Shown here: one piece after another, positions 13,751 through 55,622 of the stretch
Layout of the letters: the number at the start of each line of letters is the position of its first letter
How positions within the stretch are numbered: position 1 is the first letter of the stretch
IMG/VR virus record: IMGVR_UViG_3300009184_000038
Coordinates: 1 to 64,000 of that record
Length of the DNA: 64,000 nt
Reading direction: 5' to 3' (one strand)
From: a virus
Translations under genes and position numbers: made by a program
The notes under the pieces: generated by a model
What the model saw: the letters and a program-made list of their open reading frames with translations, nothing else
What the model was told of the DNA's origin: nothing
The model's database searches: none

Positions 13751-14028
13751 ACGACGAGTTTAAAGACTATCTGACGATCATCCAGACAGCCAAAGCCGTA
13801 GGCTGCTCGCGGCGAACGCTGTACCGAGTCGTTGAGCGGATCGGCACCGACGAGATCGTGACCGTGGCATTCGGCAAGCGGCTCGTCCACAAGTCGAAGG
13901 TTGCCGCCATCAAGGCCGCCTATATGCCCCTGGGGAGTAAGAAGCACTCAATGGCTGCTCGTGCCTGGGGGTCGGCCGGCGGGACGCAGAAGCGAATCAA
14001 TCGCGAGAAGGCAGCCAAGAAAGCCTAG
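13747..14028 (+). CDS. putative HTH DNA-binding protein
   Basis: 93 residues. AKAVGCSRRTLYRVVERI (about residues 15-32) is a good helix-turn-helix, preceded by a short N-terminal helix and followed by a basic, Ala-rich tail (KRINREKAAKKA). A plausible early regulator. It ends the rightward block and overlaps the convergent HNH gene by 4 bases. Confidence 0.7.
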   Translation: MNDEFKDYLTIIQTAKAVGCSRRTLYRVVERIGTDEIVTVAFGKRLVHKSKVAAIKAAYMPLGSKKHSMAARAWGSAGGTQKRINREKAAKKA

Positions 14029-14312
14029 CTCGAGTCGCGGGCCGTGCGCCGCGCATGGCAGGAGTGGCACGTTGTCCTTAAATTGCTCATGGACTCATCA
14101 CCCCCTTTCGACTTCTCGACGATATGGTCGATGTCGGGGCTGCCGGTGACGAGCAGCCCGCACAACTGGCAGATGCCCATGTCGCGGGCGATCACGGCAA
14201 GCCGGGTGCGCCGCCACGCCGCAGAGCAGTAGCCGCGGGCCGCCGCCGTCGGCCGCTCCTGCCCCCGTGCAGGGGAACGATCAGGACGGTACGTCGGGAT
14301 TCTTTTCGGCAC
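14025..14312 (-). CDS. small HNH endonuclease
   Basis: 95 residues from GTG 14312, with GGAG 7 bases upstream. HNH motif: C48/C51, DHIVEKSKGGDES with His63, Asn78, then C82/C85 and His86. A free-standing nuclease of the homing or packaging type. Convergent with the rightward block. Its N-terminal coding region includes a family-B repeat on the plus strand (14262-14282). Confidence 0.85.
   Translation of the reverse strand: MPKRIPTYRPDRSPARGQERPTAAARGYCSAAWRRTRLAVIARDMGICQLCGLLVTGSPDIDHIVEKSKGGDESMSNLRTTCHSCHARRTARDSS
14262..14282 (+). repeat. isolated family-B repeat inside the HNH gene
   Basis: CCCCCGTGCAGGGGAACGAT on the plus strand, same orientation as the rightward block but about 230 bases past its last gene and within a leftward gene. 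Confidence 0.65.
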
Positions 14313-14625
14313 GAGCCTGCTCCTGCCAGCCGACCATGAGTACCTGATGGGCCTGCCTGCGCCGCCACCACTCGATGATCGCCTTGACGATCAGTTGGGC
14401 GAGCACGCTGATCAGGATCGCGGCGATGACCGAGCCGTACTGATCGCGAGCCCGTAGGCGTAAACGAGCGGAGAGCACCTCTGCCATGCGGTCGGGCGGC
14501 GCGTCGGTTGGGAACTCCTCGACCGCCCACTCGACGAGCCGGTCGCGGAGGGCGGGGTGAGCCGACAGCCGGATACCGCCTGCGCGGTTGACGTAGGTTT
14601 TCAGCGTTTCGTATTTGGCGGGCAT
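14281..14625 (-). CDS. single-span membrane protein, possible lysis accessory
   Basis: 114 residues from ATG 14625 (AGGA upstream; a further ATG at 14640 is less well placed). Soluble N-terminal 70 residues, then one membrane segment (SVIAAILISVLAQLIVKAII) followed by WWRRR. Overlaps both neighbours. With the lipoprotein and protease upstream it may belong to a lysis group; this is inferred from context. Confidence 0.65.
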   Translation of the reverse strand: MPAKYETLKTYVNRAGGIRLSAHPALRDRLVEWAVEEFPTDAPPDRMAEVLSARLRLRARDQYGSVIAAILISVLAQLIVKAIIEWWRRRQAHQVLMVGWQEQARAEKNPDVPS

Positions 14626-14879
14626 GTGCCGTCCTTGCATGGAGCGGAGGACGACGTGACTTTGTTGCCCTTACAGACGGGGCATACGGTGCGAACGGTT
14701 CCGTCAGTCAGATAACCAAGGCCGCGGCAATTGCTACAAACACCAGACGGAGCTGGAGCTGGCTTCGCCTGCGACATGAGCGAGTATCTGCCGGCCACCG
14801 CGACGAAAGGTCGGAGGTCTTCGGTGGCGCTCGAGCAGCCGCAGAGCAGGGCGGCGAGCATGAGGATGCACTTATACAT
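14601..14879 (-). CDS. small lipoprotein with DnaJ-like zinc motif
   Basis: 92 residues. Hydrophobic signal ending in the lipobox LCGC (Cys15), then a linker and CSNCRGLGYLTDGT...CPVCKG, the CxxCxGxG pattern of DnaJ-type zinc ribbons. Overlaps the protease gene by 8 bases, start ATG 14879. An outer-membrane-spanin-like role is possible from the lipobox and context, but the zinc motif is not typical of spanins. Confidence 0.7.
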   Translation of the reverse strand: MYKCILMLAALLCGCSSATEDLRPFVAVAGRYSLMSQAKPAPAPSGVCSNCRGLGYLTDGTVRTVCPVCKGNKVTSSSAPCKDGTCPPNTKR

Positions 14880-15870
14880 TGCCGGCGGCTCCGTAGGTCG
14901 TGTGCTTGCGACGAGGCCAGCCTGCAACGCTTGAGAGTGCGATGCACTGGCACTTATCGATCGTGTCCGCGAGTGCCCAGAAGCAACCCTCGGGAATGAG
15001 CAGATCGGTGCCGAGCACCTTGCGGCTCCCTGAGTTCCAGCGGCTCCACGAATTGCACCACGCCACCAGGGCCTGACCGTATTTCTTGTGCGTCTCAGGG
15101 CGGTCGTCATATCCGACGAAAGATTGACTGTGAGCCCAGCGGCCAACCTGACGACTTACACCGTCTTCATTTCTTGTGTTCTCGAATCCAAGCGACGAAC
15201 AGTTAAACACGCCGAACCCAGACGCGAGGAAGTCGCGAACTTGGCTTCTGCCGCGAAGGAACGTCGCCGTCCTCGCGACATATTGCTTGCTCTCGCGAAG
15301 CCACGCATCGCCTGGAGGAGTCGCGCCGCCAAGCTTGATTGTCTTCTCGGTGTAGCGAGTCAGATCGATCTTCAACTCTGGATATGGCTTGCGGATCAGG
15401 AAGCCTTTCTCGCAGGCGACCTTCGCGGCTTCAGAACACACCCAGCCGTCCGAATTGAAGCCCCGCCAGGAAAAAAGGCTCTCCGCCGCGATAACTGATT
15501 CGCGAATACCTTCAGGCGGCAACTCAGGAGCACCCTCGAGTCTGCCCGTCACCTCATCGGGTTTGTTGTCGTATATTTCTGCGCTAAGGCTCCCGAGCAA
15601 CGCCCGAGAGCATCCCCATGAGACGCAATCCCCCCAAAGTTGACTTGGCCCCGGCAGGCTCCCAGGAAACACCGCATCAATCGTTCGCCACAGCGTCGAA
15701 AGCCTGCCAGCCCCGGCCTCTTCCAGCCCCCAGTCATACGCGACGTTCGCGCCATTGGGATCGCCACCGTATCTCAACACATAGTCGGCGAACACCTCGT
15801 CCGCACGCGGGTCTTTACGGCAGCCGACAAAGCCGCTCGAGTAAGCAGCCGATGGGTCGAAATCACTCAT
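14872..15870 (-). CDS. papain-like (C1-type) cysteine peptidase
   Basis: 332 residues. SQLWGDCVSWG gives Gln77 and nucleophile Cys82; WAHSQSFVGYDD gives His247; WCNSWSRWNSGSR gives Asn273, the NSW motif of papain-type enzymes. Order and spacing fit the Cys-His-Asn triad. There is no signal peptide. It sits between small membrane proteins and a lipoprotein, where siphoviruses often place the endolysin, so it could attack host envelope protein; a virion-maturation or structural role is the alternative. Confidence 0.75.
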   Translation of the reverse strand: MSDFDPSAAYSSGFVGCRKDPRADEVFADYVLRYGGDPNGANVAYDWGLEEAGAGRLSTLWRTIDAVFPGSLPGPSQLWGDCVSWGCSRALLGSLSAEIYDNKPDEVTGRLEGAPELPPEGIRESVIAAESLFSWRGFNSDGWVCSEAAKVACEKGFLIRKPYPELKIDLTRYTEKTIKLGGATPPGDAWLRESKQYVARTATFLRGRSQVRDFLASGFGVFNCSSLGFENTRNEDGVSRQVGRWAHSQSFVGYDDRPETHKKYGQALVAWCNSWSRWNSGSRKVLGTDLLIPEGCFWALADTIDKCQCIALSSVAGWPRRKHTTYGAAGNV

Positions 15871-16357
15871 TGCCGTTCACCCTGAAGGCGTGGGCGAGCA
15901 CGTTGCAGGCGGCGAGCAGCTTCTCGCCAGTGGCCTTGTCGATAGCCTTCACGTCGGCACCGACGGCGTTGAAAAAGACGGAGTCGATCGCCTTGTCAAG
16001 GCCGGGGTACTTGCCCACGTTTTTCTTCTGAATGGCAAGCTGGAGCGAGCCGGCGTGGAACACGGTGAACTTGTCGGTGTCGCCGATGATCGGAGCCGAT
16101 CGCTCGCCGTCCTGCTTCAGCACAAACGCCGTCGCGTCATAGAACGCCGCGAGATACTGCCGGTCGGAGGGCAGCATCTTCGGCAGGATCGCCTTTAGCT
16201 CCGTCGCCCAGGCGAGCTGCTCGGCCGAGGGCTTCGCCGCCACGGCGACGGCCGCGGCCGGCTGCGGAAGCTGCGGCCACGTCACGCTCATGTTGCCGCC
16301 GCGCCACGCGAAAAACAGGATGACAGCAGCCACGATATGCCTCGCTTCGACTTTCAT
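15863..16357 (-). CDS. membrane-anchored hypothetical protein
   Basis: 164 residues. N-terminal hydrophobic segment (IVAAVILFFAWRGGN), Pro/Ala-rich linker, then a helical domain (LKAILPKMLPSDRQYLAAFYD). Likely anchored in the inner membrane with the rest outside. ATGA overlaps with both neighbours; part of the same operon as the peptidase. Confidence 0.7.
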   Translation of the reverse strand: MKVEARHIVAAVILFFAWRGGNMSVTWPQLPQPAAAVAVAAKPSAEQLAWATELKAILPKMLPSDRQYLAAFYDATAFVLKQDGERSAPIIGDTDKFTVFHAGSLQLAIQKKNVGKYPGLDKAIDSVFFNAVGADVKAIDKATGEKLLAACNVLAHAFRVNGNE

Positions 16358-16626
16358 TTGTCGCTCCCCGCCACCAAGGCCAGCGTCAGTGTGTCAATAG
16401 CTGCCCGCTGCGGGCTCTTCTCGTCGCCCAGGAGGCCCGTGCTGTTCAGACGGGTGCGAACCAGGGCAAGGTTGGCAATGGCTTCCTGATAGCTCACAGA
16501 GTCGCCCATCGAGGGCACAGGCACCGCCGGCATCCTGCCCCAGATCGACTTGACCACGGCGACGATCTTGGGCCACGCGAAAACAATCGCCGCGACGATT
16601 GCGGCACCAACTTGCTCGTATGTCAT
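16354..16626 (-). CDS. small membrane protein, holin candidate
   Basis: 90 residues, one N-terminal membrane segment (GAAIVAAIVFAWPKIVAVV) followed by a soluble helical part. Size and place before the peptidase are compatible with a holin, but a single span is not diagnostic. Confidence 0.6.
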   Translation of the reverse strand: MTYEQVGAAIVAAIVFAWPKIVAVVKSIWGRMPAVPVPSMGDSVSYQEAIANLALVRTRLNSTGLLGDEKSPQRAAIDTLTLALVAGSDK

Positions 16627-16916
16627 TTGATTTCCTGTGCCACGATTGCGAACCAGTTAACGAGGGCAAGACCCTCGGGTGTCTTGATGACGGCCTCGAC
16701 CAGAGTCAGGAGGTCGTTGTCTTTGTCGGTAGGTGTTTTGTCGGCGGCCATCCGAAGGGCGGCGATGATCGCGACGGCCTTCTCGGCTGGCGTCTTCGCT
16801 ACGGCGACGGCCTCAAGCTTCGCTAGCAGGGGAGCCCACTGAGCCAGGAGCGCGATCTTCCCCACGAGTGACAACGCACCGTAAGCATCGCCGAACGTCT
16901 CTTCATTTGCGGCCAT
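16623..16916 (-). CDS. hypothetical helical protein
   Basis: 97 residues, Ala/Leu-rich amphipathic helices (VGKIALLAQWAPLLAKLEAV). ATGA-coupled to the membrane-protein gene. No domain recognised. Confidence 0.6.
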   Translation of the reverse strand: MAANEETFGDAYGALSLVGKIALLAQWAPLLAKLEAVAVAKTPAEKAVAIIAALRMAADKTPTDKDNDLLTLVEAVIKTPEGLALVNWFAIVAQEIK

Positions 16917-17279: not shown

Positions 17280-17553
17280 CGATGATGTCTCCTTTGGTAG
17301 TGTTCATTCTACCAAGACGAAGCTCCCTCTCGGCGGGATGCCAGCCCGCCCGAATCTTCGCGCATTCCAGGCGAATCTGGGCCGGCGTCGGCAGATAGCA
17401 CTCTGGTGCCGTTCGCTCGGGCAAGCATAAAAACGCTGCTGCCGCAGCGAGGTCGTCTGCCGTGAAATCCAGTTCAACGCAGATTTCTTCTGCCGTTGAG
17501 TCGCCCTTCCAGAGCCGTCGCAAACTACGCTTCTGGTTGGCGGTCAATTTCAT
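17200..17553 (-). CDS. hypothetical HTH-like regulator, paralogue of 19870-20205
   Basis: 117 residues. First helices LRRLWKGDSTAEEICVELDF resemble a small HTH; the stretch AKIRAGWHPAERELRLG matches AAIRATWTPAEREARRVG in the gene at 19870, so these are paralogues. The last 27 codons overlap the gene at 17085 in another frame and are low-complexity; the true end may have drifted. Confidence 0.65.
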   Translation of the reverse strand: MKLTANQKRSLRRLWKGDSTAEEICVELDFTADDLAAAAAFLCLPERTAPECYLPTPAQIRLECAKIRAGWHPAERELRLGRMNTTKGDIIDAGRSTAGDSSDGSAADDQQRRRNRR

Positions 17554-18419
17554 GGCAGGATGGCGATGTACCTCGAGCCGGGGTTCATGAAGAGCTGGTA
17601 GCCGGCCTTCTGCATGGCCTTGTGTAGCGGCACATGCTCACAGTCGCTGCCGTCGTAGACGCCGGCTAGGAACGCCTCTCTGCGGTAGAGGCAGAGGCCG
17701 CCGAACGCGGAGTTCATCGGGATCGGCGGCGAGCCGGCCGGCGGGAGGAGCGCATGGAACCAGTTGTGATCTCGGCGATCCTCCCACCAATTAAGCCTCG
17801 CCGCCCACGCATCGTACCCCGCGATCCCAAAGCCGCCGCCCTCCTGGCGGACGAACAGCGAGTAACTCGCCATCGCCCCCGGCTCACGCCGATGGAAAGA
17901 CTCACCCATCATCTCGCAGAACCAGCCGAGGCTGTTGAGCACGCCGTCGACGCTGAACCCGCCGTGCGGGTCGGTGTCCAGCACCATCACATAGCTCGCG
18001 TCAGCGGCATTTAGCCGTACCCACTCCTGGCAGCGGGCGCGGCATTTTGCCAACCGCTCCGTCCGCTCGGGCTCAAAGCCTCGAGCATCCAGGCCGCCGA
18101 GGGTGTCGTGATCGACGGTCACCCACTGGCGAATGGCGAAGTCGTCGAGCACGGCGGCCGTCTCGTCAGTCGAATCGTTCTCATAAACGTAGTAGACGCA
18201 GTCGCGCCACAACCCCGCCAGCTCGTCGACGAGTCTCAACGTGTTCTTTAAGTGCGGCATCGAGTTGCGGGCGATGCTGACGATCGCCAGCTTGCGGCGG
18301 CGGGCCTCGACGCGGCCGAACTCAACCCGCTCGCGGAAGCCGGCAGCGTATTTCTCGCCGATAGACCAGAAATCCTCTGGCCTGCTGATCTTCATGCCTG
18401 GGCAGTAGGTGAACTTCAC
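17550..18419 (-). CDS. glycosyltransferase-like protein
   Basis: 289 residues from GTG 18419, overlapping the previous stop as GTGA. KLAIVSIARNSMPHLKNTLR, VYENDSTDETAAVLDDF and VMVLDTD (DxD-type metal site) give a GT-A-fold nucleotide-sugar transferase, similar in layout to mannosyltransferases of the CMT1 type. The DTDPHGG motif and GGLCLYRREAF stretch support an intact enzyme. It sits with a second transferase and a methyltransferase, suggesting a modification cassette acting on phage DNA, virion protein or host glycan; the target is not visible. Confidence 0.7.
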   Translation of the reverse strand: MKFTYCPGMKISRPEDFWSIGEKYAAGFRERVEFGRVEARRRKLAIVSIARNSMPHLKNTLRLVDELAGLWRDCVYYVYENDSTDETAAVLDDFAIRQWVTVDHDTLGGLDARGFEPERTERLAKCRARCQEWVRLNAADASYVMVLDTDPHGGFSVDGVLNSLGWFCEMMGESFHRREPGAMASYSLFVRQEGGGFGIAGYDAWAARLNWWEDRRDHNWFHALLPPAGSPPIPMNSAFGGLCLYRREAFLAGVYDGSDCEHVPLHKAMQKAGYQLFMNPGSRYIAILP

Positions 18420-19033
18420 GATATAGCCTTGATCATGGCGGCCTTGCGGTCGGGGAAACACGTCGCGTGGAAGAAGCGACCGCCATCGACCCCACGGGGG
18501 TCGTTGACGTGCGGATTCCACTCATACGGCAACTCAGCCCAGGCTCGGCCCGCCGGCGCCGCGACGGGGGTTGCGTCGGGATCGCCGCCGAGGGCGGCGA
18601 TCAGAGCCGCCTGCTCCCACCAGCAGGCAGATCGGCGAAAGCCGTTGAGCGGCCAGAGGCTCTCAAGCATCTTGGCGGCCTCGGCCCGCACGAGCCATAC
18701 GCCGCAGTTCGGGACGGCTCCGTCTCCGGTGTTGTGTATCACCATCCCCATCGGGGCGGCGGCCGGCAGATCGTCGAGGATATCCTTGTCGTACTCGAAA
18801 ACGGCGACATCGGCGTCCAGCCAGAGCACGGCGTCGTAGCCGCCCCGCAGGAGAGAGACGATCAGTGGTATCTTGCCCCACGAAACGTGCCGACCGATGC
18901 CAGCGAACTGCTGCCCCGACGGGACGAACAGGTCATACCCATGCGTCTGCGCGTACCACGCGAACGTCGGCAGCGACACGTCCAGCAGCTCGGCCATCGG
19001 CCCGAGGCCGAATGTCGTGAGTACCTTCTTCAT
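18416..19033 (-). CDS. GT34-like glycosyltransferase
   Basis: 205 residues from ATG 19033 (ATGA with the previous gene). WGKIPLIVSLLRGGYDAVLW followed by LDADVAVF is the core of the galactosyl/mannosyl transferase GMA12/MNN10 family, with LDADV as the metal-binding DxD. Later NCGVWLVRA and the WEQAAL stretch match the acceptor side. Short for the family but the core is complete. Confidence 0.78.
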   Translation of the reverse strand: MKKVLTTFGLGPMAELLDVSLPTFAWYAQTHGYDLFVPSGQQFAGIGRHVSWGKIPLIVSLLRGGYDAVLWLDADVAVFEYDKDILDDLPAAAPMGMVIHNTGDGAVPNCGVWLVRAEAAKMLESLWPLNGFRRSACWWEQAALIAALGGDPDATPVAAPAGRAWAELPYEWNPHVNDPRGVDGGRFFHATCFPDRKAAMIKAIS

Positions 19034-19548
19034 TTCCACCCCATGAAAAGCACGCGACCTTTACCGTCGGCGTCGGTCGCCGTATGCGAGAACTTCGCCG
19101 CCACCGCGGCCTGCATCTCAGGTGTGAGCTGCTCGTAGTCGTGGATCGCCAGACCGCTCGCGATCTCGGCACACCCGAGGTACTCGAAGAGCGCCGCTGG
19201 CCCGTGAACCGCGTCGTGGAAGATGAAGTCGAACTGCCCCGGCAGGCAGGAGGCCAGGAAGCCGCCGGCACTGGATGCCACAGGATTGATGTTCGTCAGC
19301 CCAAGCGTGGCCCAGTAGACCGTCCGCATGGCCTCCGAGACCGTGTCGCACAGGTCGACGGCGGTGATCGTGCTCCTGGGAGCCGCCCAGGCCATTGCCG
19401 CGGCCGACCTCCCCTCGTGGCTGCCTAGCTCAAGGATACGCCACGCCTGACCTTCGACGGCCTCGCAGAGCATCCGAATGTGCTTGCGGTCTGTCGTCAT
19501 CGGGTGCGAGTCGTCAAGGAAATCGACGAATTCACGCCAGCCTGTCAT
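19030..19548 (-). CDS. class I SAM-dependent methyltransferase
   Basis: 172 residues from ATG 19548. RILELGSHEGRSAAAMAW is motif I, ITAVDLCD the acidic end of strand 2, FDFIFHDAVHG motif IV. Closest in style to Methyltransf_24-type enzymes found in sugar or cephalosporin-hydroxylase-like clusters, not to DNA methyltransferases. ATGA overlaps on both sides. Confidence 0.78.
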   Translation of the reverse strand: MTGWREFVDFLDDSHPMTTDRKHIRMLCEAVEGQAWRILELGSHEGRSAAAMAWAAPRSTITAVDLCDTVSEAMRTVYWATLGLTNINPVASSAGGFLASCLPGQFDFIFHDAVHGPAALFEYLGCAEIASGLAIHDYEQLTPEMQAAVAAKFSHTATDADGKGRVLFMGWK

Positions 19549-19838
19549 TGAAGAGTCTCCAGAAACGCCTTGGCCTCGGCCGCCGAGGTGACGACGGCCA
19601 CAGGGCATCCTGCCGATGCGAGTTCCCGCATCCGGTGATTCTGGATTTTCGTCGGCTCTTCGCCTGGGCGTTTGCACTCGAGCCAGACGGCTCGACCATC
19701 CTTGATCATGAGCACGTCGGGCACGCCCGACATGGTGAATGCGTTCCCGTGGAACTTCGTCACCCAGAAGCCCGAGGCGCGTCCTTGCGCCATAACTTTT
19801 GCAACTATGGTTCGCTCCAGGGGAGCTTTCCGCTGCAT
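19545..19838 (-). CDS. VRR-NUC domain nuclease
   Basis: 97 residues. SGVPDVLMIKDGRAVWLECKRPG gives the PD-(D/E)xK set Asp41, Glu54, Lys56, followed by the conserved Gln66. Stand-alone VRR-NUC proteins are frequent phage Holliday-junction or flap nucleases near replication genes. First gene of the four-gene coupled cassette. Confidence 0.88.
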   Translation of the reverse strand: MQRKAPLERTIVAKVMAQGRASGFWVTKFHGNAFTMSGVPDVLMIKDGRAVWLECKRPGEEPTKIQNHRMRELASAGCPVAVVTSAAEAKAFLETLQ

Positions 19839-22106: not shown

Positions 22107-22561
22107 TTCAGTCGCTCCAGCAACCCGCAAAGCAGTCTTTTGTATTTTTCGCGGTTGTGGCTCTGAGTCAATCTGGTCAGCGGCTTTCGCAATTCCGCAA
22201 AACACTCAATCGCCTCCCGCTCCTCGTCGGTGAGGGCTGGTGTATTGCCGGTGCGAGGCAGCCCACGTTCGACTGACTCGCTTTGCGCCAGTAAGCTCCG
22301 CTCGGGCTCCCGAGTGCTTTGCTGGACGCACGCTTCCGGCACAGCGTCATGAGCTGGATGGTAGTATACAACGTCGCCAGTAGACAGAACCGCCGTGCGT
22401 GGTTGCGGCGTTGGCGAAGTTCGCTCCCGCTCACGGAGCATGGCGTCGGCCCACTCGTAGGCGCGAGCCGCGAAGCTGGGCATGGCGCATTCAGTTCGGT
22501 CGCCGTCGTCTGCAAGCAGGCCCGTCAACGCCGCTGCGGCAAATATGTCTCGGTCAGTCAT
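22103..22561 (-). CDS. hypothetical protein of the MTDRD / LLERLK-tail family
   Basis: 152 residues. MTDRDIFAAAALTGLLADDG, YEWADAMLRERERT, LTDEEREAIECFAELR and LLCGLLERLK. Paralogue of the gene at 21384. ATGA-coupled to both neighbours. Function unknown. Confidence 0.72.
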   Translation of the reverse strand: MTDRDIFAAAALTGLLADDGDRTECAMPSFAARAYEWADAMLRERERTSPTPQPRTAVLSTGDVVYYHPAHDAVPEACVQQSTREPERSLLAQSESVERGLPRTGNTPALTDEEREAIECFAELRKPLTRLTQSHNREKYKRLLCGLLERLK

Positions 22562-22875
22562 GTCGGCTCCTCCATCGGCACGAACTGGAGATCAAAGAGC
22601 TTCCCGTCACGATTTCGATAGACCATCTTCGATATCGACTCGTCTCTATTTCGCCACACCGCCATCATCCCCGGCACCACGCCCCACCGATTCGGGTTGT
22701 CTGCGTAGCATCGACAGGCTCTGAAGATGCGGCCGCTGTGCGTGTTAATCAAAAACGACCCGTCAAATCCCGCATACGCTGGCGTGACGCACGGCTCTGA
22801 CTTGGCGGCTGGCTGCGAGGCGACCGCGCCTGCGGCGAATGACGAGAGCCACGAGAAGAAACTGCGGCGATCCAT
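22558..22875 (-). CDS. exported protein with Tat-type signal
   Basis: 105 residues from ATG 22875. MDRRSFFSWLSSFAAGAVAS is a twin-arginine-type leader (RRSFF, hydrophobic run, Ala-x-Ala-like end). The mature part has FRACRCYADNPNRWG and WRNRDESISKMVYRN; no known domain. Confidence 0.65.
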   Translation of the reverse strand: MDRRSFFSWLSSFAAGAVASQPAAKSEPCVTPAYAGFDGSFLINTHSGRIFRACRCYADNPNRWGVVPGMMAVWRNRDESISKMVYRNRDGKLFDLQFVPMEEPT

Positions 22876-23285
22876 CACTTCACCTCCGGTGTCGCGCCGC
22901 CAAGAAAATTCATCTTCTTTAACGTCAGCGTGATTGCACTCTCTATTGATTTGCGGTCTTGGTCAGTGAGCATGAATTTGGCTTCAGGTGGCTCGGGCAG
23001 TGGCATCCAGTGCGAAGCACACCACGCTCCGCGCTCGGTAGAGAACCAGCCGCCACGCTTGTTAAATGTGGCTTCGCCAACCTGTCCAGTCATGCCGCCA
23101 CCTTCAAAGCAGGCGATCACACTTTGCCCGTCTTCGGGCAGTTGCTCCGAAACAGGAATCCAGCAGCGTTCTTTTCGCAGCCGCTTGATTTCAACAACAG
23201 CATCTTCCAGAAGCGGCGGCGCGTCTGTGTCCCAGAACGTGTCGTGCCGAAATGACTCCTCTATGCGTTCGACGATGTCAGTCAT
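22875..23285 (-). CDS. DUF551-containing protein
   Basis: 136 residues. CWIPVSEQLPEDGQSVIACF (about residues 41-60) and SHWMPLPEPP (about 90-99) are the two ends of DUF551, a small domain common in phages with no established role. C-terminus has LTDQDRKSIESAI, related to the LTDEER motif of the adjacent family. Confidence 0.85.
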   Translation of the reverse strand: MTDIVERIEESFRHDTFWDTDAPPLLEDAVVEIKRLRKERCWIPVSEQLPEDGQSVIACFEGGGMTGQVGEATFNKRGGWFSTERGAWCASHWMPLPEPPEAKFMLTDQDRKSIESAITLTLKKMNFLGGATPEVK

Positions 23286-23614: not shown

Positions 23615-23865
23615 GTCTTTCCCCAGTGAAACATCATGACTCCGATTGCCATGCACGACAGGCCAATAGGCATCGACATGAACAGCCAGACAAACGGCAA
23701 CGCAGCACCGGCACTCAAGTCTTTATCGATCGGACACGCAAGGACGTTGATGATGTACCAATTTAGGTACGGCTGGTTGAGCGTGAAGAGCGGGGCGGGC
23801 CACGCCACCAAGCATGCGCCGAGGCATAGAAGGACGAAGCCGATGAAGGTGGCGAGACTCTTCAT
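23611..23865 (-). CDS. two-span membrane protein
   Basis: 84 residues from ATG 23865. Membrane segments FIGFVLLCLGACLVAWPAPL and VWLFMSMPIGLSCMAIGVMM. Small size and two spans would also fit a holin, but it lies far from the peptidase. ATGA coupling on both sides. Confidence 0.62.
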   Translation of the reverse strand: MKSLATFIGFVLLCLGACLVAWPAPLFTLNQPYLNWYIINVLACPIDKDLSAGAALPFVWLFMSMPIGLSCMAIGVMMFHWGKT

Positions 23866-24215
23866 GCCCAAGTCACCGTGATCCTCATGAGTTCGCCCGC
23901 AGTCACAGCGTAGCTCACGTTGATTGGGCGCAGCTTCTTGGTGTATGTCTCGACCATCAAAGTGTCGTCCCCATTCTTGCCGCCGGGGGCGTGAACGTAC
24001 TCGACCTCGCAGTGCATTAGGCCGTCGTAGGTCTGGTGGCATGAGATCGAGGTGACGTGACACTCCTTGAGCATCGAGAGCAGATCGTTCTGCACCGCGA
24101 GCGGCTTAGGCAGTGCCTTGCCAGTCGCGACCTCTGTTCCAGTCGGCAGCTTCACGCCACTGGCGATAGCCGTCGTCACTGCCATCAGCGAACCGAGAAA
24201 GCCTCTGCGATCCAT
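23862..24215 (-). CDS. exported protein with Tat-type signal
   Basis: 117 residues from ATG 24215, overlapping the upstream stop as TAATG. MDRRGFLGSLMAVTTAIASG is a twin-arginine-type leader. Mature part: LSMLKECHVTSISCHQTYDG and HCEVEYVHAPG. Second Tat-type leader in this cluster; no recognised domain. Confidence 0.65.
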   Translation of the reverse strand: MDRRGFLGSLMAVTTAIASGVKLPTGTEVATGKALPKPLAVQNDLLSMLKECHVTSISCHQTYDGLMHCEVEYVHAPGGKNGDDTLMVETYTKKLRPINVSYAVTAGELMRITVTWA

Positions 24216-24373
24216 TACTTCACCTTCCCTTTCGGCGCTTTCCAAAACTTAGGGTCGTCGAACTTCTTGAACATCTCTAGCAGCATCGGCCTTTCGATCT
24301 TCTCCCAACACTCCTTCGCGAGCTTTTCGTCGTCGCGGCACCACCAGTACGGGTCGATTGGCTTCTCGCTCAT
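24215..24373 (-). CDS. small hypothetical protein
   Basis: 52 residues read by hand. MSEKPIDPYWWCRDDEKLAK, LLEMFKKFDDPKFWKAP and a Lys-rich tail. The start is ATGA-coupled to the upstream gene and the stop TAATG-coupled to the next, so it is very likely translated. Confidence 0.68.
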   Translation of the reverse strand: MSEKPIDPYWWCRDDEKLAKECWEKIERPMLLEMFKKFDDPKFWKAPKGKVK

Positions 24374-30452: not shown

Positions 30453-30641
30453 TCACGACGCGGCCTCCTCCGTTTTCGGAGGGGCGCGGTAGATCAGTTC
30501 CTCGCGGATGATCTTGACGTGCTTGGGTGCGTCGATGACGAGCCTGACCGTCTTGCCTACGACAGACTCGACCGTGATCTCGATGCGAGGCCGATCCAGA
30601 ATGAGCTTCTGGCCGGGGCGACGAGTTAAGCAAAGTGCCAT
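30453..30641 (-). CDS. csrA: CsrA/RsmA-like RNA-binding translational regulator
   Basis: 62 residues, normal CsrA length. LTRRPGQKLIL (strand 1), IEITVESVVGKTVRLVIDAP (strands 2-4 with the IDAP turn) and VKIIREEL with Arg46 corresponding to the conserved RNA-binding Arg44 of CsrA. CsrA dimers bind GGA in mRNA leaders, often over the Shine-Dalgarno. The replacement of MLVL by MALC at the N-terminus is a mild change in an RNA-contact strand. It stands alone just before the replication operon's small genes. Confidence 0.9.
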   Translation of the reverse strand: MALCLTRRPGQKLILDRPRIEITVESVVGKTVRLVIDAPKHVKIIREELIYRAPPKTEEAAS

Positions 30642-38692: not shown

Positions 38693-38746
38693 CCCACCTA
38701 GACTTCAAGCATCGGCGTGGTACTCCTTTTGACGGAGAGTCACCCC

Positions 38747-39601
38747 ATGCGATTGCTTCAAGTGCTTCACGATTTCTACGCGCCGCTGACGGGAGTCAGC
38801 GACCGCACGATCACCCTCTACAGCTACACGCTTCGTGCGTGGGGGGAGGTTCTCGGGCGACCGCCTGAGACCACAGATTTAGAAGAGCTGTCGGTCGCGC
38901 GGTTCTTGGCTCACCGTGTTCGCACGATGTCGGCCGCGACGGCCGCGAAGGATAAGGCCCAGGTCACCGCCATCTGGGGGTTCTGCTCGAGGCGTAAAAT
39001 GTGCGAGACGTGGCCTCAGACTCCCAGGATCATCGTGCCCGAGCGGGTGCCGGAGTGCTGGATGACGGACGAGCTTCAGCGAGTGATCGACTCCGCGAGG
39101 CAGGAGCCGTACAGCTACTGCGGCTTCTCTGGCTCGCTGGTGTTCCCCGCGATGCTCCTGACCGCTTACTCGACGGGGGAACGCATCGGCGCGATCATGG
39201 GCCTCAAGTGCCGCGACGTTCGCGGTTGCAGCGTTATCTTCAGAGCGGAGGATCGCAAGGGGCGTCGGCGGGACATTTTCCGCGACATTAGCGTAGCCTG
39301 CGCCGATGCGCTCCTGGCTGTTGCCCGCGGGCCAGAGGATACCGCCATCCCGTGGGATCGGCACCCAACCTACGTCTACAACCGGCTGAAGATCATCCTC
39401 AAACGAGCCGGCCTGCCGCACGGCCGCAAGGACAAGTTCCACAAGGTCAGGAAGACGACCGCCTCCTACTACGAGGCGGCCGGCGGCTCTGCCCAGCGTC
39501 TGCTTGATCACTCGAGCCCAGCGGTCACGAGGAAATACCTAGACCCCAGGATCGTCAGCCCAGGCGTGCCTGCCCCGAGCGTGCTTCCCAAGGTGGTCTA
39601 G
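38747..39601 (+). CDS. int: tyrosine recombinase / integrase
   Basis: 284 residues from ATG 38747 (GGAGAG upstream). SAM-like N-terminal core-binding domain with the TLYSYTLRAWGEVLG helix, then the catalytic domain with Arg146 (TGERIGAIMGLK), Lys171, His232-x-x-Arg235 (FHKVRKT), His255 (LLDHSS) and Tyr264 (RKYLDP): the full active set. It integrates the phage into the host chromosome. One of only two rightward genes outside the 5.9-14 kb block. No attP core could be identified. Confidence 0.93.
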   Translation: MRLLQVLHDFYAPLTGVSDRTITLYSYTLRAWGEVLGRPPETTDLEELSVARFLAHRVRTMSAATAAKDKAQVTAIWGFCSRRKMCETWPQTPRIIVPERVPECWMTDELQRVIDSARQEPYSYCGFSGSLVFPAMLLTAYSTGERIGAIMGLKCRDVRGCSVIFRAEDRKGRRRDIFRDISVACADALLAVARGPEDTAIPWDRHPTYVYNRLKIILKRAGLPHGRKDKFHKVRKTTASYYEAAGGSAQRLLDHSSPAVTRKYLDPRIVSPGVPAPSVLPKVV

Positions 39602-46024: not shown

Positions 46025-49000
46025 TTACCATGCCGTAAGGGCAGCAACGAAGTCTGTGCCTGCACTTACGCTTGCCCAATTTATCTGCGGGCCGATCCGA
46101 GTCGGCGACAGCACAACCGAGACCGAGTTTCCACCAATTTGAGCGCTCCTGTTGCTGCCCCAGCCCCACAGCTCGCCTTCTGCCGTGGTCGCGAAGGCGC
46201 ACTCGCCGCTGACGGAAACGCTTGACCAAGTTTTACCGAGTCCGATCTGCGTCGGAATGACTCGGGGGTCGGTCGTCCCGTCGCCAATCCCGTAACTGCC
46301 ACCGCCCCACCCCCAAAGGCCGCCGCCAGATGTGATCGCATATGAAATTGCGTTACGCGACGAACCTCCGACCCAGTCGCTTGATGTTCCGATTCGGACG
46401 GGTGAGGTTCTGGGCGAGATTGTCCCGTCACCGACTGCGCCAGAGGCGTTGTAGCCCCAGCCCCATAGCTGGCCGGTCGTCGTTATGGCAAAAGAATTGT
46501 CGCCTCCAGCAAAAACTTTTGACCAATTCGTTGCCGAACCAATTCTCACAAGGGTTTCTGTAGGGTTAGTCGTTCCGTCACCGACTTGGCCGAAATTGTT
46601 GTATTCGCCGAGACCCCAAAGTTCACCAGCCGAGTTGATTGCGAAGATCGTAAACCCTCCGCAGGCGACAGCAACCCAATTGCTTGCCGACCCTATCCTT
46701 CGAGGGGTATCCGGCGCTCCCTGCAAATCAACTCCCCAAGAATAAAGAGCGCCCCCAGCAATTCCCGCGGAGTGGTAGTCGCCAGCAGAAACAGAAGTCC
46801 AATTTGAGGCCGAACCGACGAAGAATGGGGAGTTCTTGTTATCTCGCGAGCCGAGGCCAAGCTGCCCATAACCGTTGAGCCCCCAGGCCATCAAGCGTCC
46901 AGTTGTTGTGATCGCTAGCGAATGATACCTACCGGCAGCGATACTCGAGAATCGAATTGAGGAAAACGATATCAGCCCCGACGGCGGCGGCGGCGGGACG
47001 ATGTTGTATGTGCCGCTTCCAAGCTGCCCCTGCGCGTTGTTGCCGCCCCATGCCCAGACCTGACCGGATTCGTCGGGTACGGACAGCGGAGCAGGAGCGC
47101 TCGTGAGCGATGTCGAGAACGTGGAGCCCGAGAGGCCAGACGTTGCCGTCACAACAACCCTATACACGTCGCCGTTGTCGCTCGCATATTTCAAGTTATT
47201 CAGAGACAGAGTCGCGGATGCTCTTCCTGGCAAGTCGACGAAGCTTCCAACACCTTTCGTCTGCTTCTGCCACTGATACGAGAGAGCAGAGAAAGGCGAC
47301 GTTGTGGCCGATACGAGAAAAGTAGCTGCACCATACAGAGACGTTTGAATCGTCGGCTGGTATGTGATACTCAGCGACGGGCTGGGGACGTTGAGTGTGG
47401 CTGTTCTGCTGAAAACGGTGGGCGCTCCGCTTGCGGAGATCGCTGCCCGATAAGCGTCTTGATCGTTCACTGACGCAGTGAGTCCTGACAGCGAGAGCGT
47501 CCGACTCGTTGCAGAGGGAATGTCGGCGAACAACGACGATCCAGGCTTCTTAACTTGCCACTGGTAAAAAACGGTCGCGAGATTCGAGGAAGTTGCGTTA
47601 GTTGAGAAAACAGCCGAGCCAGTAAGAGACAAGAAATCTTGAGGCTGCTCTGTGATATTTATGTCCGCTGACGGAACATTCAATACTGCGATCCCGCTCG
47701 TCACGCTGACGCCGGAACCATCTGCTGACGAGACGACGACACAGTATTCGTCGCCATTATCGGCGGCTGGCGTCAGCCCGGTCAGGCTCAAAACGCTGGC
47801 GGTCGCTCCGGCAACGTCAGTAAACGTGCTTGACCCGCCCTCCCGTTTTCTCCACTGATACCGGAGCGAGCCATACGAGATGGTCGCCGTAACAGAAAGG
47901 GCCGCAGTGCCGCTGTAGGTCAATACACTTTTCGGATCGGACAGCACCGTGATGGCCGGCAGTGGCACGGTCAGGGTTGCGGAAAAGCTCGTCGCGCCGA
48001 TCAAGCCGTTTGTACCCGAAATCACAACCCTATAAACGTCGCCGTTGTCTGTGACTGCCGATAGCCCTGACAGGAAGAGGTCGGGCGAATTAGAGCCTGG
48101 AATGTCTATGAAAGGCCCAGCGCCAGACTCTTGTTTTTGCCATTGCCACGCCAGCGATGAAGAGCCGACCGTTCTTGTAAGGACAGAAAATCTCGCCGTC
48201 CCGCTAGAGGCAAAAACAGACGCCGGGTGCGAGATGAACTCAACGTAAGGCGTGGGCAAGACGGTGAGGGTTGCTTCATTGCTATACGCTGCCGCCGCCC
48301 CTCCTGTCGCCGACACTATCACGCTGTAAGCGTCTCCTGTATCAAACACGGGGCTTAAACCCGTCAGGGCAAGCGTAGCGCCCGTCGCGCCGGGCACGTC
48401 TGTGGAAGTCACGCTGCCCGACTCTCGCTTCCGCCATTGGTATGAGAGAGTCGCCCCTCCGGTCACGCTTGCGGCCACAGAGAATGTTGCGGAGCCTCCG
48501 ACGGACGATTGCGAAGACGGCTGACTCGTTATCACGATTACCGGCACCACTGCGAACGACAGCTTCGCTGCTTGGCTAGTGACGGATGCTGCGCCACCTG
48601 TTGCCGAGACGACCACGCGATACCAGTCGCCGTCATCGCTCGCGGACGAGAGCCCCGTTAGCGGCAGGGTTCTGGATGTCGCGCCGGTCACGTCCGAGAA
48701 CGGGCCTGCGCCCGACTCTTGCTTCTGCCACTGATATGACAAAGTGGCCCCGCCGGTCACGGTGGCGGTTGCGGCGAACGTAGCCGCATTGCTAGCCGCC
48801 TGCTGGCTGGTGGGTTGCGAAGTGATTGCGATAACAGGCAAGGAGATCACCGTCAACGACGCCGCCCGCGACGTTACGCTCGCTGCCCCGCCAGTCGCAG
48901 AGACAATGCAGCGGAATTTGTCTCCGTTGTCGCTGGGGGATGCGGGGTAGATCGACAGGCTGGCACTCGTTGCGCCGGATATGCTCCCGCCATTGGATAC

Positions 49001-52000
49001 ATCCACGAAAGCCCCCGCCCCAGACTCCTGCTTTTGCCATTGATATGACAGCACAGAGCCGCCCGTGACTGAAGAAGACACAACCAAAGTCGCCGTGCCC
49101 CCCTCGGCGACCGAAGCGTCCGCGGGGCTGTTGCTCTGAACAGTGATTGCGGGAACAGGAACGCTCAGTGCGGCAGAAAGACTCGTAACCGAGACCGCGC
49201 CGTCTGTTGACGAAAGGACAACCCGGTATACGTCTCCGTTGTCGTTGGCGTAAGTTAGCCCAACCAAGTCGAGGCTCGCACTGGTGGCACCGGAGACAGC
49301 CACGAACGGGCCAGCGCCAGACTCTTGCTTTTGCCACTGATATGAAATTGTCGCACCACCCGTAACGGACGCAGAGACGCCGAAAGTCGCTTCGCCAGAG
49401 ACGTTTGCAGTGCGACTAGACGGTTGTGACACAATGGTGATGACCGGAGAGGCTACGGTGAGCGTAGCCGCACCGCTGGTGACGCTAGTCGCTGCCCCCG
49501 AGGCAGAGGCAACGACCTGATACAAGTCGCCGTTGTTCGTGGCGTTTGTCAGCCCGGTCAGCGCGAGTGTTGAACTCGTGGCTCCTGGTATGTTTGCAAA
49601 GCTACCAACGCCCGCTGCCCGTCGCTGCCACTGATACGAGACCGTTGGGGTGAAGGTGGCTACGGCAGTAGCGGTAAAGGTAGCAGAACCACCCACCGCG
49701 ACTTGGCTTGAGGGCTGCGAAGTAATCGTTATTACTGGAACGGGCACCAGAACAGCCACGGCCGCGCTCGTGACACTCGTTGCTCCACCAGTGGCTGAGA
49801 TTACAACGCGATATAGGTCGCCGTTGTTCAAGGCGTTCGTGAGACCCGACAGCGACAGCGTGTTACTTGTGGCACCGCTTACGGTGACGAAGTCGCTGAC
49901 GCCATAAGCCGATCGCTGCCATTGATAAGAAAGCAGTGCCACTGCCGAAGCAGAGGCCATAACCGAAAAGGATGCTGCACCACCGTTGGCAGTCTGGGGG
50001 GCTGGCTGCTGTACGATGGCGATCACGGGCAGCGGTACGATCAGCGCCGTCGCGTTGCTGGTGACGCTCGCTGCTCCGCCAGTTCCAGAAACCACGACGC
50101 GGTAGGCGTCTCCGTTGTCGTTTTGGTTTGTCAGCCCCGTGAGCGTCAACTGAAACGATGTCTTCCCGGCGATGTCTGCGAAATCGCTTGCCCCATTCTC
50201 GCGTTTCTGCCATTGATATGAGACCGTAACGCCTGCGCTTGCGGCAGCGGAAATATCAAGCAATGCCTGACCGGAAGATGTATTTGTGGTTTCCGGCAAT
50301 CTGCCGACAGTCAGCTTCGGATACACAATCGCGGATTCGCTTGAATATAGAGCGGCTGCACCGCCAGTCGCGGATACAGCTACCCGATAAACATCCGAGT
50401 CGTTGTCTGCCGTCAGGCCGGTCAAGGACAGGGTTGACGATGTCTCGCCGGCAACGGTCGCGAAGTCGCCGACTCCGTACCTCTTTCGCTCCCACTGGTA
50501 TGAAAGCGTTGCGCTTTTCGTGACAGAAGCGACCACGGTAAGCGATGCCACGCCGTTGATCGCGACCCTCGTCGCCGAGGGCTGCTGCGAGATGGTGATG
50601 AAGGGCGCGGGGACGGTAAGGGACACGGCGTTGCTCGTCGTCGTCGTCGCGCCGCCGGTCGCGGACACGACGCAGCGATATCGAGAGCCGTTGTCGGCAG
50701 GGGTTGTGAGGCCCGTGAGGGTCAGCGTTGCGCTCGTGGCAGTTGGTATGTCAGCGTAAACGCTCGACCCAGACGCGGCTCGTTGCCACTGGTAGAAAAT
50801 CGCGGAACCAAGCGTGGCGGTCGCCGTAATCGAAAAAGTGGCTTCTCCAGTCAAGGAGGCGACGGCTGCTGAAGGCTGCGAAGTAATCGCCAGGACAGAC
50901 GAGGGGACGCTCGCTGTGAGTGTCGCAGAAGCACTATTCACCGTGCTGAAGCCAGACTTTGAGAATACAGCGCGGTATCTTGACCCGTTATCGCCAAACA
51001 TCGGCCTAAAAGAGAGCGACGGAGATGTTGCCCCAGCGATAGTTGACCAAGTCGCCCCCGCGTCGAGGGATTTTTGCCATTGGATAGACGGGACTCCAAA
51101 GGGAGTCGTCGCAGACGATGAGAACGTCGCTGATAGCACGCCTCCAAAGTCAATGACAGCAGCCGATCCGTTTAGGATGAATCCGCTGCTCGACTTGGCA
51201 TACTTGATCGCCTTGTTGCCGACGACCTGTCTCTCTGTCGTGAACTGAGGCAGCGAGCTTCCCCTGCTTGTCCAAGTGAGGCCGTCAAGACTGGTGTAGA
51301 AGACTGGCACGCCCGCAGAGCTTCTTCCGTTCGCCATGAAGCCACCGTCGACCGCCGTGATTGTGTCGGCCTGCTGCGCGGCTCCGCCAGATTGGCGAAG
51401 AACCCAATTCAGCCCATCGTTGCTGCTCGCGATTCCAGTCGCCGTCAAGGCTGCATATCTTCCGTCGCGGAACGCTATTCGGCTAATCTCTAAATTAACA
51501 CCGCCGAAGTCCCACGATCCGTCCGGTCGCTGCGCGTAAATTACGCTACCGAAACCGCTTGCCGCTGGCCCTACGATGACGAATCGCCTTCCGTCATGCA
51601 CGGCATGAGTAAGCGTGGAAGCAAAGATGCCCGTTCCTGACGGCGACCCCACGCCAGCGTTCGTTACTTCATAAATCGCATCAAAGTTGGCACCAGTCAG
51701 TAGAATTTTCGATCCGTCGCTTGAAACGCATATCTCTGGAACGGTGGAAGACGTTGTTGCCGATACGGAAGTCCAAGAATTCCCATTGCGCGAGAATAGG
51801 ATGCGGCCTGCGCCTTGGTAAGCAAAGAACCACCCTCCTCCGCTTTCAACGAAATAGAGATCGGAAGTCACCGATGAAGATGACGCAAGAGACGACGTGG
51901 TGCTTGTCCAGTTAATCCCGTCAGTGCTTTTCGCGGAAACGATCGTAGCTGACCTTGGAAGAACCGTTAGATAAACTCCGTTTCCATGCACTACTCGCGA

Positions 52001-55313: not shown

Positions 55314-55622
55314 TCAGTTCGTGGCCGATTCGCCAAACTGGCCCGACTTCTTAACAACCGCCTGCTTGATCTCTCGCTGGTCGGTCGCAATCGCCTGGAG
55401 GGTTTCCGCCTGCTTGAACTGGGTCTTGCCGATCTCGTCCAGAGTCTCTCGAGTTGAGTCCAGAAACTCGGTGTGAGACTTCACAATTGGCACTACAACC
55501 GTGCCGTGGAGCGTCACCGCGGCCTCTCGCATGAACCAGATGGCGACGGCCAAGAGGACAAGGGGCACTCCGAAACGCTCGGCCACGCGGAACGCGGCCT
55601 CCACGAAAGATTCGCTGCTCAT
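55314..55622 (-). CDS. membrane protein with coiled coil
   Basis: 102 residues. Membrane segment FGVPLVLLAVAIWFMREAAV, then a heptad helix (ETLDEIGKTQFKQAETLQAI). Similar in layout to small holin-associated or spanin-like phage proteins; no decisive family. Confidence 0.65.
   Translation of the reverse strand: MSSESFVEAAFRVAERFGVPLVLLAVAIWFMREAAVTLHGTVVVPIVKSHTEFLDSTRETLDEIGKTQFKQAETLQAIATDQREIKQAVVKKSGQFGESATN

Follow-up and report, generated by a model that had tools for sequence, protein, structure and literature searches.

The question raised by this locus is how a phage may open its host cell when a papain-like protease is found in the place of an endolysin. The window, i.e. the whole stretch of DNA analyzed here (64,000 nucleotides), comprises bases 1-64,000 of a 74,545-bp IMG/VR record, the remaining 10.5 kb of which were fetched and read as well. 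The first-pass annotation had described a candidate lysis group of membrane proteins, a lipoprotein and a protease, and proposed proteolysis as main lytic activity, in case the host is a planctomycete with protein-rich envelope layers. We read the gene group as a lysis cassette that belongs to a tailed phage of planctomycetes and whose main degradative enzyme would be a C1-type cysteine peptidase and not a peptidoglycan hydrolase; we give this reading a probability of roughly 0.6.

The membrane proteins and the lipoprotein were indeed found beside the protease at the places initially assigned to them, in genes with overlaps of 4-40 nt (Table 1). From 17553 down to 14025 the genes overlap by 4 to 80 nt, which is consistent with one translationally coupled unit in a tight operon. 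The topology of c1 appears i-spanin-like, and c10, which has no family match in Pfam or PHROG, is a holin-like candidate judging from its sequence. The small lipoprotein carries a DnaJ-like CxxCxGxG...CxxC motif (CSNCRGLGY...CPVCKG) and gave a weak match to the DnaJ zinc finger (E 0.035) as well as a PHROG spanin match at E 0.11 that spans its signal-like N-terminus only; it is a candidate for an o-spanin-like protein by position, or for an exported redox or metal protein. The single-TM protein encoded after it resembles the jumbo-clade protein c190 by eye only, and the HMM drew no such link. The HNH endonuclease gene that closes the run is probably a passenger. In several distant members, the protease is followed by a protein of the c41 type; the window homologue is located far off, and c41 has no holin family match. 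Among holin and spanin families, none matched the cassette proteins above cut-off. Upstream of the cassette, weakly glycosyltransferase-like and methyltransferase-like genes (17550-19677) are kept in relatives, and another glycosyltransferase-like gene is situated in the head region of the 74.5-kb record (70580-71308).

Table 1. Positions of the cassette genes, the protease residues and related features; coordinates refer to the window unless a locus is named.
Feature	Position	Strand	Basis or remark
Papain-like (C1-type) cysteine protease (predicted), 332 aa	14872..15870	minus	ORF, catalytic residues, model
Gln77 codon	15642-15640	minus	
Cys82 codon	15627-15625	minus	
His247 codon	15132-15130	minus	
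Asn273 codon	15054-15052	minus	
c1, 164 aa, N-terminal hydrophobic anchor and ~110-aa soluble domain	15863..16357	minus	HMM homologues
c10, 90 aa, one N-terminal TM segment	16354..16626	minus	homologue in 100/104 loci
c3, 97 aa, hydrophobic/amphipathic	16623..16916	minus	homologue in 58/104 loci
Small lipoprotein, 92 aa, lipobox LCGC, start 14879	14601..14879	minus	sequence
Single-TM protein, 119 aa, alternative start 14625	14281..14640	minus	sequence
HNH endonuclease, last gene of this overlapping run	14025..14312	minus	PF01844, E 1e-10
Distant c41 member, single-TM, holin-like topology	55314..55622	minus	HMM, E 1.1e-11
Intein-split protease genes	L005:4561-6759; L029:4518-5915; L030:4166-5563		
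Matrixin with peptidoglycan-binding domain, ~200-kb phages	L089:8286-9095; L120:7778-8629		

The catalytic triad initially proposed for the protease was found with exactly these residues and numbers, Cys82 within QLWGDCVSW, His247 within WAHSQ and Asn273 within CNSW. In an alignment of 69 divergent representatives (31-87% identity), Gln77, Cys82, His247 and Trp275 are invariant (69/69), and Asn273 is present in 64 sequences and replaced by Gln in the other five. This residue set and its order correspond to the oxyanion Gln of papain followed by the catalytic Cys, His and Asn. The AlphaFold model calculated from the same alignment reached a mean pLDDT of 93.5 and a pTM of 0.92, and Cys82 begins a helix (82-101) in it. 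The top Foldseek matches of the model were xylellain (3OIS) and cathepsin B (E ~1e-9 to 1e-7, TM-score 0.41-0.59). The predicted fold is hence papain/cathepsin-like, of the full two-domain C1 type and not of the CHAP or NlpC type, and the window protease is a putative peptidase. At the sequence level, no match was obtained in Pfam, PHROG or PDB, and when the PDB sequences were searched with phmmer and with profiles, only chance matches came up; the protease therefore seems to combine a C1-like predicted fold with a position outside any described sequence family.

A papain-fold enzyme could also simply be the usual endolysin, cutting stem or cross-bridge peptides of the peptidoglycan in the manner of CHAP and NlpC/P60 enzymes, which belong to the same superfamily. 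Peptidoglycan hydrolases with a papain fold are known (PMC10318531), the host peptidoglycan is of the DAP type (PMC4432640), and in the jumbo clade described below a matrixin neighbour bears a peptidoglycan-binding domain. However, the model shows the two-domain fold of papain and cathepsin B, the CHAP and NLPC_P60 HMMs miss the protease, and it has no wall-binding domain, so that we regard this explanation as unlikely.

Two further lines of evidence concern the protease. The dN/dS of the protease (0.08-0.13) is close to that of the terminase TerL (0.09-0.11) and below the values of the adjacent cassette genes. Moreover, the protease of L005 is interrupted by an intein of 398 aa that comprises Hint and LAGLIDADG domains (PF14890, E 3.8e-11) and that of L029/L030 by a 131-aa mini-intein. 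Both start with CFPAGT, end with VHN and sit directly before Cys82 (CFPAGT...VHN|C), so that the Hint splicing domain, the Cys at the first position, the His-Asn end and the Cys at +1 are all in place. Inteins favour conserved active-site positions in important proteins, hence the insertion sites independently mark Cys82 as a key residue. The full intein and the mini-intein occupy the identical position in different phage clades. Altogether, the invariant catalytic columns, the TerL-like dN/dS and a gene order kept in more than 100 loci confirm that the protease signal goes beyond chance.

The gene order was followed in IMG/VR, where successive scans gave 6, then 30 and then more than 80 loci, and a profile of distant members added 113 candidates; the counts given here refer to 104 distinct loci whose upstream sequence spans 1.5 kb or more. 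In 103 of them, the gene just upstream of the protease encodes a c1-type protein. TM proteins of the c10/c76/c102/c324 type occur in 100 loci, with the link of the jumbo groups c190, c76, c102 and c324 to window genes resting on a combined profile, as their own HMMs gave no match in the window. The HMM of the downstream lipoprotein family matched in 86 loci, the CxxCxGxG motif is present in 76, and c3 is found in 56 of the 62 loci outside the jumbo clade. The carriers range from contigs of ~35-75 kb up to jumbo phages of ~205 kb, and different TM proteins with holin-like topology adjoin the protease in different elements. Terminase relatives without a protease were inspected for a replacement gene; the contigs examined are fragments that stop close to the terminase and thus say nothing on this point, and the one contig that is near-complete has the protease. 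Neither the window protease nor that of the jumbo clade had a tblastn match among the 50,697 phage records of INPHARED.

Jumbo contigs of up to 205 kb share the set c102-c1-protease-c5, and 40 of the 42 jumbo-clade loci encode a matrixin upstream, beside the cassette. In two examples, L089 and L120, the Pfam family Peptidase_M10 was matched with E 4e-19 and 2e-19, and PG_binding_1 was matched in L089 (4e-9, over cut-off) and L120 (0.002, below cut-off). The latter domain was detected in ten out of ten large genomes, eight times over cut-off, and in none of 29 other records. The two-TM protein c179 near the jumbo matrixin weakly matched Phage_holin_10 (E 0.0012, below cut-off). In L080/L029, an exported Thioredoxin_2 protein (E 2.5e-8) is encoded beside the cassette.

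Despite several searches, a classical lysin was not recognized. In agreement with the first-pass annotation, which had seen no recognizable peptidoglycan hydrolase in the window, Pfam applied to the predicted genes of the record gave none, in the case of one gene set among the matches listed (best 25 of 41 families), and a Pfam recheck of ten of the less clear proteins gave none either. A muramidase or amidase was also sought in the missing 10.5 kb, where a classical endolysin would, on the annotation's own terms, count against its proposal; no classical endolysin was found. Six-frame searches with Amidase_2, Phage_lysozyme, SLT, NLPC_P60, M23, CHAP and M15_4 in 39-40 records, including ten of about 194-205 kb, yielded nothing above cut-off, while the named control genomes gave matches. 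Weak matches to Amidase_2 (G008), NLPC_P60 (G007) and M23 were below cut-off and not counted; many of the M23 matches fall in a jumbo protein of 1460-1490 aa that by eye resembles an RNA polymerase subunit. The absence of classical lysins accordingly refers to these seven Pfam families and to the Pfam scan of one genome, in records that are mostly classed as linear and may be incomplete, and novel lysins could be among the remaining ORFs without assigned function.

The left end of the record encodes the portal, the terminase and an S78 prohead protease (PF04586), and the missing 10.5 kb contain genes for capsid, head completion and tail tube-like proteins as well as the remainder of the tape-measure-like genes. 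The record thus appears near complete in content; end repeats were not found in its 74,545 bp. A tyrosine-recombinase-like integrase (38717-39601, E 4.5e-6), whose plus-strand gene is surrounded by genes on the minus strand, makes a temperate phage possible. Further genes of the window include a CsrA-like regulator (30453-30641; CsrA match with E 5e-15 in the gene set containing this ORF), a tail protein of 2,972 aa that contains Ig-like domains and, at its C-terminus, a propeller of RCC1 repeats (46025-54943) and two small proteins with Tat-signal-like starts by eye (22558-22878, DRRSFFSWL; 23862-24245, DRRGFLGSL). This layout bears on the idea that the papain-like enzyme is a virion component, acting either as a protease in maturation or, once ejected, in opening the envelope at entry. 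In favour of such a role, the cassette of L080/L029 follows a weakly P22-portal-like gene, and in chromosomal elements it stands just before the terminase. The window genome, however, already encodes its own prohead protease, for which reason the role of a prohead protease was rejected, the protease gene lies outside the structural module, as the cassette lies outside head and tail modules in most relatives, and TM and lipoprotein partners are atypical of virions. A virion component is therefore very improbable.

The planctomycete host received support from two sides. All three matches of the protease in a collection of 84,980 species genomes are Planctomycetes MAG contigs, and homologues were detected in 12 of 392 Planctomycetota genomes (E 1e-134 to 4e-6), most of them on multi-megabase contigs. 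Gln, Cys and His are kept in all 12 of these chromosomal proteins, and c1 homologues are found upstream in at least five cases. Several have their own N-terminal TM segment, which by its sequence would place the catalytic domain outside the cytoplasm. In the islands L285, L286 and L287 (G181, G399 and G393), a terminase large subunit gene is located near the protease; that of L285 was recognized by Pfam and by similarity to the TerL of a Thermus phage, and those of L286 and L287 share 85% and 56% identity with the L285 gene. Here the cassette is followed by an exported thioredoxin-type protein (WCPYC or WCPHC), and the islands resemble prophages or elements derived from them. L285 and L286 are flanked by the same host genes, one of which is U32-peptidase-like by eye; hence their element may be a domesticated prophage or gene transfer agent that is passed on vertically.

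The chromosomal copies might have a function for the host, and papain-like enzymes are common effectors. It is therefore conceivable that the protease targets the host, other phages or host defences, for example in takeover, superinfection exclusion or counter-defence, and plays no role in lysis. In this regard, and also against the lysis reading, the cassette of several relatives is situated beside DNA-metabolism genes or an RNA-polymerase-like gene and not in a textbook late region, and sigma-factor-like genes are also found nearby. In one clade (L117:5173-5697 and homologues), a sigma-70-like protein, perhaps a late-transcription factor, is encoded directly after the cassette. Nevertheless, the fixed membrane-anchored partner, the exported CxxC protein downstream and the N-anchored homologues point outside the cytoplasm, and such a role would leave these phages, including the 200-kb ones, without a visible lysis enzyme. 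We consider a function apart from lysis quite improbable.

Proteolytic lysis is thus favoured because the envelope-type partners are fixed while holin-like and exported companions vary, and because self-anchored chromosomal variants exist and no other lysis enzyme is visible. In the proposed sequence of events, small TM proteins, c10 and perhaps c41 at 55 kb, would permeabilise the inner membrane, and the protease, which has no signal peptide here, would then be let into the periplasm. The anchored c1 and the small lipoprotein would work in the envelope beside it, and the lipoprotein or other exported CxxC proteins would perhaps hold the catalytic Cys in its reduced state or cleave disulfides. 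Finally, the protease would cleave protein layers of the envelope or peptides of the wall, upon which the cell would burst. We infer the peptidase activity, the holin role, the periplasmic action of the window copy, its substrate and lysis itself; the substrate may be protein layers, wall peptides or envelope-stabilising proteins. Older work described a proteinaceous planctomycete wall surviving boiling in SDS (reviewed in PMC3422733). Planctomycetes possess, however, DAP-type peptidoglycan sacculi that are disrupted by lysozyme (PMC4432640). Hence, the planctomycete part of the initial host premise stands and its protein-rich wall is weakened, a cut in wall peptides is as open as one in protein layers, and the lysozyme sensitivity speaks against proteolytic lysis, because a classical lysin would work on such a wall.

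The matrixin with PG_binding_1, the exported thioredoxin-type proteins and the homologues with N-terminal TM segment form a common extracytoplasmic theme. It might be that planctomycete phages from ~50-kb siphophage-like to ~205-kb jumbo forms share a lysis free of murein hydrolases, consisting of the papain-type peptidase, an anchored partner, an exported redox protein (CxxC or thioredoxin-like) and, in the jumbo clade, the peptidoglycan-binding matrixin, with the envelope opened by proteolysis and disulfide cleavage; this generalization is tentative, and we would sooner doubt it than rely on it. In any case, the family makes one cassette recognizable at over 100 distinct loci, in addition to prophage-like chromosomal copies. 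No paper was found in the literature on planctomycete phage lysis or on such a system, and phage exit from planctomycetes appears undescribed. If true, a proteolytic lysis cassette would reveal how the unusual planctomycete envelope is held together, inform the long-standing debate on protein walls in this phylum and provide enzymes for opening planctomycete cells.

Compared with known systems, the protease shares with the C1A peptidases of clan CA (xylellain 3OIS, cathepsin B) the predicted fold, the order Gln-Cys-His-Asn, the Cys at a helix start and an NSWG-like motif, whereas it is only ~15% identical, has its own N-terminal region and large insertions, and belongs to a phage-borne family mostly without signal peptide. 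Foldseek also placed the model with unnamed or 'Peptidase C1A' phage proteins; the BFVD entries 'Peptidase C1A, papain C-terminal' from uncultured Caudovirales have the same predicted fold at 10-16% identity. The tight group of small TM protein, N-anchored protein, enzyme and lipoprotein is similar to the lysis cassettes of Gram-negative phages (holin, endolysin, i-spanin, o-spanin), but the enzyme here is a predicted C1-type protease, c1 and the lipoprotein have no significant spanin homology, and an exported CxxC or thioredoxin-like protein belongs to the set. A cysteine peptidase that lyses a host with an unusual wall is known from the pseudomurein endoisopeptidases PeiW and PeiP of archaeal viruses, which differ in family and substrate and are likened here by description only. 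Mycobacteriophage LysA proteins reportedly use N-terminal peptidase domains in lysis. Papain-superfamily peptidase domains likewise serve lysis in CHAP and NlpC/P60 endolysins (PMC10318531). In LysA as in the CHAP and NlpC/P60 endolysins, a peptidoglycan peptidase is linked to further lytic or binding domains, in contrast to the stand-alone, predicted C1-type enzyme of the window.
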